A stretch of DNA of 33,319 nt from contig PHBN01000017.1 of assembly GCA_002840635.1 (NCBI GenBank), forward strand, positions 1 through 33,319, read 5' to 3'. This document shows, in pieces, positions 2,211-10,574 of the stretch. Within the stretch, counting starts at the first letter, position 1. Each line of letters opens with the position of its first letter. The translations under genes and the position numbers were made by a program. Under the pieces are notes generated by a model, which was not told the DNA's origin, searched no databases, and saw only the letters and a list, made by a program, of their open reading frames with translations. This DNA comes from Deltaproteobacteria bacterium HGW-Deltaproteobacteria-1. Its GTDB lineage: Bacteria; Desulfobacterota; Syntrophia; Syntrophales; Smithellaceae.

Positions 2211-3067
2211 GAAATTATGCTGACGCTGATAATCTCCACGCGAGGATTTACGCCATGAGAGGCCGCCTTCTCTCGCTCAATGATTATGCCTCCATATCCA
2301 GGGAGCAGGTTTCTGATAAAATTTTTGGAAATAGGAATATGATAGAAGCCAAGGAGATACTTTTTCGGGAGCAGATAGCCCCTGTTCTTTCGCTTGTCGA
2401 GGCCTACGACAAATATGCCGCTCTTTTTCTGGCTTACCTTCGTCAATATGAAGCGCACAACGTAAAACTTCTCCTCGCCAGGGCATTAGGAAAAGAAAGC
2501 CTGGATCAGTGGTATGATATTGGCCCCTTTGCTACCTTGAACAAAGATCTTCTTACTAAAAATCTATCGCTCGATGAAATAAAATCGCTTCTGGCCGACA
2601 CGTATCTCGGCCAGGCCAAAAAAGAATTTCAGGAGATGATGATCAGGCGGATTGCCGTGCTATCGGTGATCTGGTCCTACAGGCTTCGTGGATACTATCG
2701 TTTTCATGATGAACAGGTTCGTTCTTCTCTGAAGAAATTCCATGACCTCTTCGGCGGTCATGTAGAACCTCAGATGCGGATAGTGGAGGATGCTTTAAAC
2801 CGGCGCATAGAACAATTACAAAAAAGCGGCGCGCAGAAACCATCCATCGTGGATATAGAGCGTCATATTGAGCAGGATTATTACGTCTGGGTTTCGTCCC
2901 AGTTTCACAGGGATTTCCACTCCATATATTGTGTGATTGCCTATCTGTGGCTCCTCTTCTATCAAATACGTAATCTGTTTCGCATAAGGCAGGCATCATC
3001 CATCTCGCCCGTTTTCATGATCAAGATTCTAAAATGGACACCGGACTTCAGGATGAGGAAGCCCTGA
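2207..3067 (+). CDS. atpC: V/A-type ATPase subunit C (AC39 family); native C-terminus apparently lost
   Basis: AC39-like body ending 'IAYLWLLFYQIRNLFRI', then ~30 residues that read the start of subunit I in the wrong frame. Confidence 0.75.
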   Translation: MRNYADADNLHARIYAMRGRLLSLNDYASISREQVSDKIFGNRNMIEAKEILFREQIAPVLSLVEAYDKYAALFLAYLRQYEAHNVKLLLARALGKESLDQWYDIGPFATLNKDLLTKNLSLDEIKSLLADTYLGQAKKEFQEMMIRRIAVLSVIWSYRLRGYYRFHDEQVRSSLKKFHDLFGGHVEPQMRIVEDALNRRIEQLQKSGAQKPSIVDIERHIEQDYYVWVSSQFHRDFHSIYCVIAYLWLLFYQIRNLFRIRQASSISPVFMIKILKWTPDFRMRKP

Positions 3068-4715
3068 CCCGGGAGATTATATCGGGCACTGAGTATGCAC
3101 TCAATGCCTTGCTTATCCAGCCGGAAGCGGCCGATGTGACCAGGAAGACCATCGATAATCGTTCGGATGCTGCGTTTGTCTCCGGAACGAAAAAAGTCAT
3201 AGAGCGCGCAGTGAGACTGCGGTCCATGATTCGATCGGCAACAGATGAGGTTGACCGGCAAATCGAATATGGTGATGCCTTGTATCAGATGGGCATTGAT
3301 CCCGGAATGATTAAAAAAGCAAGACTCGTGAAGCCGGTTTTTGGTACGGTGGACAATGCCGTTTGGGATGTTCCCTCTGACGAGCGTTTTATGCTGACCA
3401 AGAGGGGAAACCTTGTGTTTGGCCTTGCTCTACCGGTCAATTATCCCGCAATGCTCCAATTCCTGAAAGGCTACGGGTTTGCCGACACATCCGCAGATGT
3501 CCGCGATGTCCCTCTGGAACGTCTGAAAAAACGGGCAAAGAGCCTGAGGCGTCGTCATGACGTAATTGATGACTACATCAATCGTCTGAAGGAAGAAAAA
3601 GGCCAGACTATCAAACAACTGAGCAGCACTTACCGTGGCTATGAAGAGATACTCAAGGCCATGCGCATGTCCCTCTTTTCTGCCAGGGCGATGTTTATTA
3701 CGGGGTGGATGGATATGAGGGAGCCCCGGTGCGCCTGATGAATATCAGACTGTTCAAGCCTTTCGAGCTTCTGGTGAAAACCATGGGCATGCCGTCCAAC
3801 AGCGAGATTGATCCCACACCGCTTACGGCCATTACCTTTATCCTCATGTTCGGCCTGATGTTTGGCGATCTCGGTCAGGGATTGGTGCTCATGCTGTGTG
3901 GCTTGATATTGAGAAAGGTCGGCAAAAAGAAATTTCAGGAAGATTTGATGCAGGCGGGCGGAATCCTGATGGTCTGCGGCTTTTCCGCATCTCTTTTTGG
4001 GTTGCTTTACGGCAGCCTTTTTTCCAGTGAACATATTATCCCTGCGCTGTGGTTTCATCCCTCCGCGCACATTATGAAATTGTTTGCCACAACCATCCTG
4101 ATGGGAGTGGTGTTTATCGCGGTAGGCCTGTGTATTAATATACTCAATAGTTTTCTTAATTCGGATTATACCGAAGCCCTTTTTGAGAAGCGAGGGCTGG
4201 CCATCCTGGTCCTCTATACCGCCATTGTGGTTTTTGCTTTAAATTACCAGAGGACCGGTCAGATGCCCACATTATGGGCCATCAGCGCTTTCATCTTCTT
4301 TCCTCTTATTCTTTTTTCACTGCGGGGGGTGCTGGGGTCTGTGCTTTTTCAGAAAGGAAAACCGCACAGCATTTCAGAATACATCATCGAAACCGTCATG
4401 GACATTGTAGAGATTGCCCTAGGCCTCTTCGCCAATACAATTTCATTTATCAGAGTAGGCGCTTTTGCACTTTCCCATGCAGGCTTAAGCATTGTAACGT
4501 ATACGCTTGCCGGCATGGTTGACCCCGCCATGAAATCCCTGGGCGCTCTCATCATTATTGTTTTCGGGAATATTTTTATTATCGGTTTCGAAGGTCTGAT
4601 TTGTGGAATTCAATCCATGCGTCTTGAATACTATGAGTTTTTCGGAAAGTTTTTTAAAGGGGACGGGGTTGTTTTTAGCCCGTTCACCTTAAAGGCAAAA
4701 GCATCGGAGGTGTAA
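2974..4715 (+). pseudogene. atpI: V/A-type ATPase subunit I (116 kDa/a-type membrane subunit), N-terminus missing and internally frame-shifted
   Basis: Frame 1 opens after a stop at 2971-2973 with 'SVSHKAGIIHLARFHDQDSKMDTG..' up to 'FITGWMDMRE'; it continues in another frame from 'APVRLMNIRLFKPFELLVKTMGMPSNSEIDPTPLTAITFILMFGLMFGDLGQG'. Confidence 0.8.
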
Positions 4716-7781: not shown

Positions 7782-9126
7782 ATGTCAGCAGAAATTGAGT
7801 ACACAAACCTTTCTGGCATCTCCGGTCCGTTGATATTTGTCGATGGCGTTAAAGGTGTCGGCTACGGTGACATTGTAGAGATTCGCGACGCCTCAGGCGA
7901 GTTAAGGATTGGCCAGACGCTGGAGGTGGATGAACAACGGGCCGTAGTGCAGGTGTTTGAAGGGACAAGCGGGCTTTCGGTTCAGAAAACAAGAGTCACC
8001 TTTGTGGGAAGGGCCCTCGAGATTCCTGTGGATCGCGACATGTTGGGCAGGGTTTTTGACGGTCTCGGAAGACCCATCGATGGAGCCCCTCAAGTGATCA
8101 CGGACAGGATGATGAATGTCAACGGACTGCCGATTAATCCCTGGAGCAGAGAATATCCCAGAGACTTTATCCAAACGGGGATATCGGCGATTGATGGAAT
8201 GAATACGCTTATCCGGGGTTGCCGCCCAGATCGCGCGCCAGTCCCGAATCCTTACCGCCGAGGAAGAATTCACCGTTATCTTTGCCGCCATGGGCGTGAA
8301 GTTCGACGTGGCCAGGTTCTTCATCGATTCCCTGGAAGAATCGGGCGTGCTGACCCACTCCGCCATATTCTTAAGCCTTGCCGATTCGCCTTCCATCGAA
8401 CGCCTTGTCACACCTCGCACAGCACTGACGTTGGCGGAGTATCTTGCCTTCGAGGAAGGAATGCATGTTTTAGTCATCCTGACCGACATGACGAATTACT
8501 GCGAAGCGCTGCGGGAACTCTCCAGTTCGCGTGGCGAGATTCCTTCGCGGAAAGGCTATCCAGGTTATCTTTACAGCGATCTGGCTTCTGTGTATGAACG
8601 TGCCGGACGACTCAAGGGAGGTAAAGGGTCCATTACACAGGTGCCCATACTCACCATGCCGAGCGATGATATTTCCCATCCCGTGCCCGACCTGACCGGT
8701 TATATCACTGAGGGGCAAATCGTCCTGGAGCGGGCGCTTTTCAACAAGGGAATCTATCCGCCCATTGCCGGGCTGCCGTCACTATCCAGACTGATGAAAG
8801 ATGGTATCGGCGAAGGAAGAACGCGGAAGGACCATGGTCAGGTTGCCGCCCAGCTTTTTGCCTCTTATGCAAAAGTTAAGCGCATTCGGTCACTGGCGGC
8901 GATTGTCGGAGAAGAGGAGCTTTCCGAACTCGATAAAATTTATCTGAGATTTGGAACCGCGTTTGAGACGACATTCTTACGCCAGGCCTATGAGGAAAAC
9001 CGTTCCATTGAACAGACTCTCGATATCGGCTGGAGGATGCTTTCGTTGCTCCCCAGGGACGAGTTGTATCGCATCGCCCGGGAGGATATCCAGAGATACT
9101 ACATGCCGCAAGCGGAGGACGCGTAA
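7782..9126 (+). pseudogene. atpB: V/A-type ATPase subunit B, split by frameshift with missing codons at ~8216
   Basis: First part '..[13 protein letters not shown]' (start ATG 7782), remainder in another frame '[35 protein letters not shown]...' to 9126. Confidence 0.88.
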
Positions 9127-9746
9127 TGTCGAGGATAGAACTGCCTCCCACAAAATCGTCGCTTCGGAAGCTTAAGGAAGACCTGGCTTTTGCCTATGAG
9201 GGTTACGATCTTCTCAACCAGAAACGTGAGATCCTGGCCCTTGAGATCGTCCGGAAGATTGGCGAAATCCGCAGGATTGAGACCGATTTTCAGCAGGTTT
9301 TGAATGAGCTCTATGCGGCCTATCGAAATGCGGCCATTGATATGGGCTCTGATGTCATTACCATACAGAGTTGCTATGAAACGAGAAGCTATTTCCTCCA
9401 TATCGATTTTACCAAACTCATGGGATTAAGGTTGCCAAACATCCATATAAATCTTAAAAATCCCAATCCCATATTCACCTTGCCGCAAACAACCGCCACC
9501 TATGATGAAACAAAGGAGCAATCACACAAGGCGCTCCTGATCGTTGCCGAATATGCCACCATGACCAAGTCCATCATTATGCTATCACGGGAATTGAAGA
9601 AAGTGCAGCGACGTGTGAATGCCCTGGAGAAGATATTTATCCCCCAGCATGAGGAATCGAAAAAGTACATTACGGACAGAATTGAGGAAATGGAGCGTGA
9701 AGAAGTTTTTGTAAAGAAACTTATCCGGCAGCGTCAGTCAGGGTAA
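9126..9746 (+). CDS. atpD: V/A-type ATPase subunit D
   Basis: 'PTKSSLRKLKEDLAFAYEGYDLLNQKREIL...' typical subunit D; start overlaps stop of B. Confidence 0.93.
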   Translation: MSRIELPPTKSSLRKLKEDLAFAYEGYDLLNQKREILALEIVRKIGEIRRIETDFQQVLNELYAAYRNAAIDMGSDVITIQSCYETRSYFLHIDFTKLMGLRLPNIHINLKNPNPIFTLPQTTATYDETKEQSHKALLIVAEYATMTKSIIMLSRELKKVQRRVNALEKIFIPQHEESKKYITDRIEEMEREEVFVKKLIRQRQSG

Positions 9747-9795: not shown

Positions 9796-10574
9796 ATGAG
9801 GATATATACCCGTAAATATGTAGAATTGGCAGAGCAACATGCGGAAAAGATGGCAAAAAGATGGGCCATGGATGTGCAGAATAATGTCAAAACACCAACC
9901 TACAAAAAACTGGATGAGCAGAAAATAATTTTTCAGTGAGTATTCCCATGGCCGAGACTATATATGCGTTGATTCTGATGCGGCGGCATATCTGGCTCTA
10001 TGCCGAGTTTCAGTTGATTTTCAGTTCCGAGATTGATCGGCAACAAGCCCTGGATACCCTGAACCGCACCATTCTGCTGTTTGATTACGCTACATACGAC
10101 GTGACCAATGAATATCAGCGGTTAATAAAGTTGGACCTGATGGAATCGATAAAGCTGTTGGACGTTGTGGAGGCCAACGTTGCAGAGATTGCTGGAAACT
10201 GGGCAGCATGTGTGAGGAAAGACAAGCGGACTGTTCATTATCATGATATACCGAAAGAGAAATTAATGTCTCAAGCTATCAAGTTTTATAATCATCTGAG
10301 AAGCCTTCTGGTTGAACCTGACCGTTTTGAAAAGGCGCATGAATTTTTTCGGCAATACGCAGAAACATGTTACAATAACAACATCCCTTTGCATGAATCC
10401 GTTTATGCACTTAATGTGATGCGCCGTCATATGTGGCTTCAGGCTGAGTTTCAGGATATTTTTATTAATGCGCTGGCGCATCATCAGGCTGTTGACAGTT
10501 TAATGCGTATTATGCTCATGATGGATTATGCAATGTTTGATATAACGAAGTTCTATCAGGATCGCTCGCAGTAG
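9796..10574 (+). pseudogene. Tandem-duplicated helical sensor-like protein (possibly RsbRD N-terminal-like), first repeat broken by deletion/frameshift
   Basis: Two homologous repeats: '..IPMAETIYALILMRRHIWLYAEFQLIF..' and '..IPLHESVYALNVMRRHMWLQAEFQDIF..'. First repeat is split between frames at ~9936. RBS GAAAGGAGAT before ATG 9796. Confidence 0.7.

Follow-up and report, generated by a model that had tools for sequence, protein, structure and literature searches.

A gene directly behind the V-type ATPase operon of this Smithellaceae draft genome lacks 103 nt in the first of its two repeats, and the loss is an assembly artefact with a probability of about 0.9. The loss is real in the database record and most likely an artefact as biology. 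The organism itself most likely has an intact gene behind the V-ATPase operon, for a protein of ~297 aa with two RsbRD_N-like domains of globin fold. As biology, the broken gene is an ordinary accessory gene. The window (the whole analyzed stretch of 33,319 nt) carries the gene and its upstream neighbor as follows.

9126 to 9746, + strand: V-type ATPase subunit D, intact (PF01813, E = 3.4e-39; gene order as in the orthologs).
9796 to 9939, + strand: 5′ fragment of the two-repeat RsbRD_N-like gene, the N-terminal part of repeat 1 (47 codons), placed by translation, with a TGA at the junction.
9936 to 9941, + strand: junction, with 103 nt of all homologs absent between 9936 and 9937 (ortholog alignment and tblastn).
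9942 to 10139, + strand: remainder of repeat 1 in a different frame, from IPMAE to LIKLDL (translation, ortholog DNA alignment and self-alignment).
10140 to 10574, + strand: repeat 2, a complete RsbRD_N-like domain (self-alignment).

The frame from 9796 to 9936 is translated as MRIYTRKYVELAEQHAEKMAKRWAMDVQNNVKTPTYKKLDEQKIIFQ and is closed by the stop TGA at 9937–9939; repeat 1 is picked up in another frame from ATT at 9942, as IPMAETIYALILMRRH and onwards. The frame change at ~9936 that had been reported in a preliminary description of this DNA is thereby borne out. Self-alignment of 9796–10574, which that description had proposed as a check, placed both pieces of repeat 1 against repeat 2 without gaps. 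The N-terminal piece scored 54 and the C-terminal piece 167, against maxima of 46 and 57, respectively, in 2000 shuffles each. The hole between them corresponds to 36 residues of repeat 2 (10140–10574). These 36 codons are 108 nt, and with the 5 nt that remain (TGAGT) subtracted the loss is 103 nt, or 34 × 3 + 1. The internal-repeat argument is sound and the observation is exact to the base, i.e., the missing segment can be sized exactly by comparison of the gene with itself. Placement of the junction at 9936/9937 is ambiguous by ~2 nt, with TG common to both sides. Outside the junction the gene is undamaged.

Subunit D upstream shows that the broken gene and its orthologs are syntenic. The ortholog is a single frame directly behind subunit D in two further Smithellaceae, STD2_170 (297 aa, JAQUVQ010000006) and AS06rmzACSIP_589 (295 aa, JAAYDW010000025). 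The proteins of both share with the window gene the site, two repeats without a linker and 72–74% identity; they differ in being one open frame that contains the 103 nt, which the window gene lacks. The 5′ fragment is 87% identical to aa 2–48 of the intact 297-aa ortholog. In the DNA alignment, 108 nt lie between the Q codon (...FQ) and ATTCCC (IPMAE) in both syntenic orthologs vs. 5 nt in the window, and tblastn with many homologous proteins returned a net difference of −103 every time. Repeat 2, the syntenic orthologs and tblastn thus agree on the loss of 34 codons plus 1 nt that had been claimed for repeat 1, and the homolog alignment, likewise proposed beforehand, gave the same result. It is extremely improbable that members of this RsbRD_N-like family are by nature without the helix pair in repeat 1, with nothing lost. 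Complete homologs, fused or as separate genes of ~150 aa, span repeat 1 (aa 2–145) without a gap, judged where the contig was complete, so this reading is refuted among the genomes examined. No homolog was found there in support of it; homologs that naturally lack the pair and start at GTG 9936 had been named as the contrary case, and the complete homologs keep the pair.

Among the relatives compared, the fused pair behind subunit D was present in the window, STD2_170 and AS06rmzACSIP_589 only. A single-domain version stands behind subunit D in other Smithella-type genomes (five loci). Several Smithellaceae have an RsbRD_N-type globin-like gene behind V-ATPase subunit D, with either a single domain or two fused ones. 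A limited literature search found no paper on a sensor-type domain (RsbRD) linked to a V-ATPase. More distant Syntrophales (16 loci) have the domain joined to a hydrophobic C-terminal part in proteins of ~280 aa; this part was seen in the alignment for nine of them and is probably membrane-spanning. A candidate viral relative was set aside as uninformative (single weak match, 58% over 24 residues). The only chains returned by the PDB sequence search were engineered RecA fusions, matched over 48 positions.

RsbRD_N (PF14361) is the N-terminal domain of RsbRD-type stressosome co-antagonists. The AS06rmzACSIP_589 ortholog matched PF14361 with 29.2 bits (gathering cut-off 24.3, E = 1.5e-6); the STD2_170 ortholog fell under the cut-off and the window fragment had no match. 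Matches at E ≤ 0.01 were obtained for 9 of 31 family members, most members being without a significant match. The AlphaFold2 model of the intact ortholog contains two all-helical domains (pLDDT 81, pTM 0.74). The best single-domain Foldseek matches were 3pmd and 3pmc (probability 1.00 and 0.99, TM-score by target 0.70 and 0.71), at 17–20% identity and with E-values of 0.19 and 0.85 for the two-domain query. Globin-coupled sensors were likewise among the best single-domain fold matches, with high probability and E-values >0.1 for the two-domain query. The domain type suggests a signaling or regulatory role for the two-domain protein. There was no match to a C-terminal STAS domain, the protein ending after repeat 2, and it is therefore not an RsbR-type stressosome protein.

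Residues 49–84 of the intact ortholog are absent through the loss, and with them most of the predicted helices 42–61 and 67–82, which matches the 'helix pair' that had been described as lost. With most of these two helices gone, the fragment would not be expected to fold as a normal domain. This bears on a further reading, in which the locus is a split working gene: a 47-aa piece ends at TGA 9937–9939, and translation restarts at GTG 9936 to give a shortened protein of 212 aa. The junction does produce a GTG/TGA overlap at 9936–9939 that could resemble a new gene start; its geometry is the usual one for coupling, and the 212-aa frame follows. However, this arrangement occurs in no homolog, all of which keep the helix pair, the loss is predicted to remove two core helices of a globin-like domain, and GTG 9936 has no good ribosome-binding site upstream. 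A split gene also presupposes a real deletion, and the reading is very improbable. GTG 9936 was accordingly rejected as an evolved start, since no homolog has it and a good ribosome-binding site is lacking.

Two further genes of the same operon are cut in the window.

About 2986 to 4715, + strand: V-type ATPase subunit I, 76 nt missing at junction 3722/3723; clean, out of frame.
7782 to 9126, + strand: V-type ATPase subunit B, 47 nt missing at junction 8218/8219; clean, out of frame.

These breaks are what a genuine loss would have in its favor. A recent out-of-frame deletion would have made the accessory gene a pseudogene, possibly as part of a decay of the whole V-ATPase operon. The cut is clean and the remainder of the gene undamaged, as after a recent event; three breaks are clustered in a single, possibly dispensable operon, and relatives carry the intact ortholog in the same place. 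Subunits A and D, however, are intact in the window, which speaks against operon decay. To distinguish operon decay from an assembly-wide property, proteins of relatives were aligned to further contigs of this genome, a MAG of 3.30 Mb in 558 contigs (completeness 83.2, contamination 4.9).

Cuts of the same kind were found on other contigs. The acetate kinase gene ackA lacks 76 nt (contig C80) and meaB lacks 139 nt (contig C170), both as clean losses, out of frame and without N. A second copy of ackA exists in the assembly and is not cut likewise. The gene nadE lacks 86 nt (contig C190), cut directly behind the SGGLDS loop; no other NAD+ synthase was found in the assembly. In a directed look at universal genes, rpoC (contig C97) was found to be cut twice (−49 and −58 nt). 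The relatives that have full-length rpoC all carry it as a single open frame. The gene alaS is probably cut at position 45784 of contig C224, with ~116 nt lost across a 1-nt junction, a size taken from profile positions only. The rpoB fragment and two EF-G copies were not cut in this way, and one EF-G match contained a single TAG.

The assessable coding sequence of the genome itself, 95.9 kb, contained six events (subunits I and B, the window gene, ackA, meaB and nadE). The reciprocal scan of one relative (G008) covered 78.0 kb and showed no net loss, and none was seen in 136 kb of loci from other relatives, these loci being redundant. Six events against none has a probability of ~0.03 by exposure alone, in a count that includes the finding at 9936 itself, and without the three events of the window the difference is not significant (~0.14). 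As these event counts are small, it is the essential genes that carry the argument. A free-living bacterium cannot do without rpoC, alaS and its sole NAD synthase. Because a living cell cannot lack those genes, the junctions in rpoC, alaS and nadE were taken as false joins, and the junction at 9936 was read as one more on account of its shared form: clean, without N, in the range of ~50–140 nt and without long shared sequence.

A genuine deletion at 9936 is thus unlikely, given that rpoC (at two sites), the only nadE and probably alaS carry identical-looking cuts on other contigs, which cannot be decay. Breaks of this kind are not confined to dispensable genes, and decay limited to the V-ATPase operon was rejected on the same grounds, namely the same cuts on other contigs and in essential genes. 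It is quite unlikely that the V-ATPase operon and the linked sensor gene are really decaying by several deletions of 50–100 nt, with the sensor perhaps a translationally coupled split gene. Of the preliminary description's central claim of a deletion, the loss, its size and the frame change stood; a genuine loss in the organism was not supported, with rpoC, nadE and probably alaS cut alike.

No long shared sequence was present at the joined ends in the junctions viewed (TG at 9936, perhaps GGG in subunit B). A repeat-driven deletion was dismissed on this basis, be it repeat slippage or collapse of a long repeat. The sampled contigs of the genome contain 15 internal N runs in 376 kb (10–154 nt), some of which may be masking and not scaffold gaps. 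Their size class is like that of the losses, which suggests that short gaps in some cases remained as N and in others were closed with no bases inserted. We infer that the junction at 9936 originated in the assembler, and the assembly step responsible would be one in which short unassembled stretches (~50–140 nt) were bridged by direct joins, with neither Ns nor the missing bases. Such joins would have removed part of the gene and shifted its frame.

For users of this record, the draft genome carries repeated silent losses of ~50–140 nt, and gene integrity cannot be relied on anywhere in the assembly. Apparent pseudogenes, split genes and odd frame changes from it are to be regarded as errors of assembly as long as reads do not show otherwise.

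Compared with known systems, the orthologs and the RsbRD_N family are alike in that the AS06rmzACSIP_589 protein scores above the family cut-off; the predicted fold of the intact ortholog is all-helical and may be globin-like. RsbRD proteins differ from the orthologs, which are without STAS and consist of two tandem sensor-like domains or of a single domain. The predicted fold of the ortholog may also be like that of 3pmd and 3pmc, the heme-less globin sensor domains of the sporulation inhibitors pXO1-118 and pXO2-61, a fold match from which function is not comparable. For the lesion itself, assembly errors have been documented as a main source of apparent pseudogenes (Cooley and Wright, 2024; PMC11017572), and a poor assembly is recognizable by its surplus of broken genes (PMC11017572). 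The window agrees with that work in its apparent gene breaks, most likely from assembly, and the lesion type recurs in unrelated genes of the same assembly and is absent from the better assemblies of relatives in the loci scanned. The cited study covers frameshifts and internal stops in general, whereas the signature here is the loss of ~50–140 nt.
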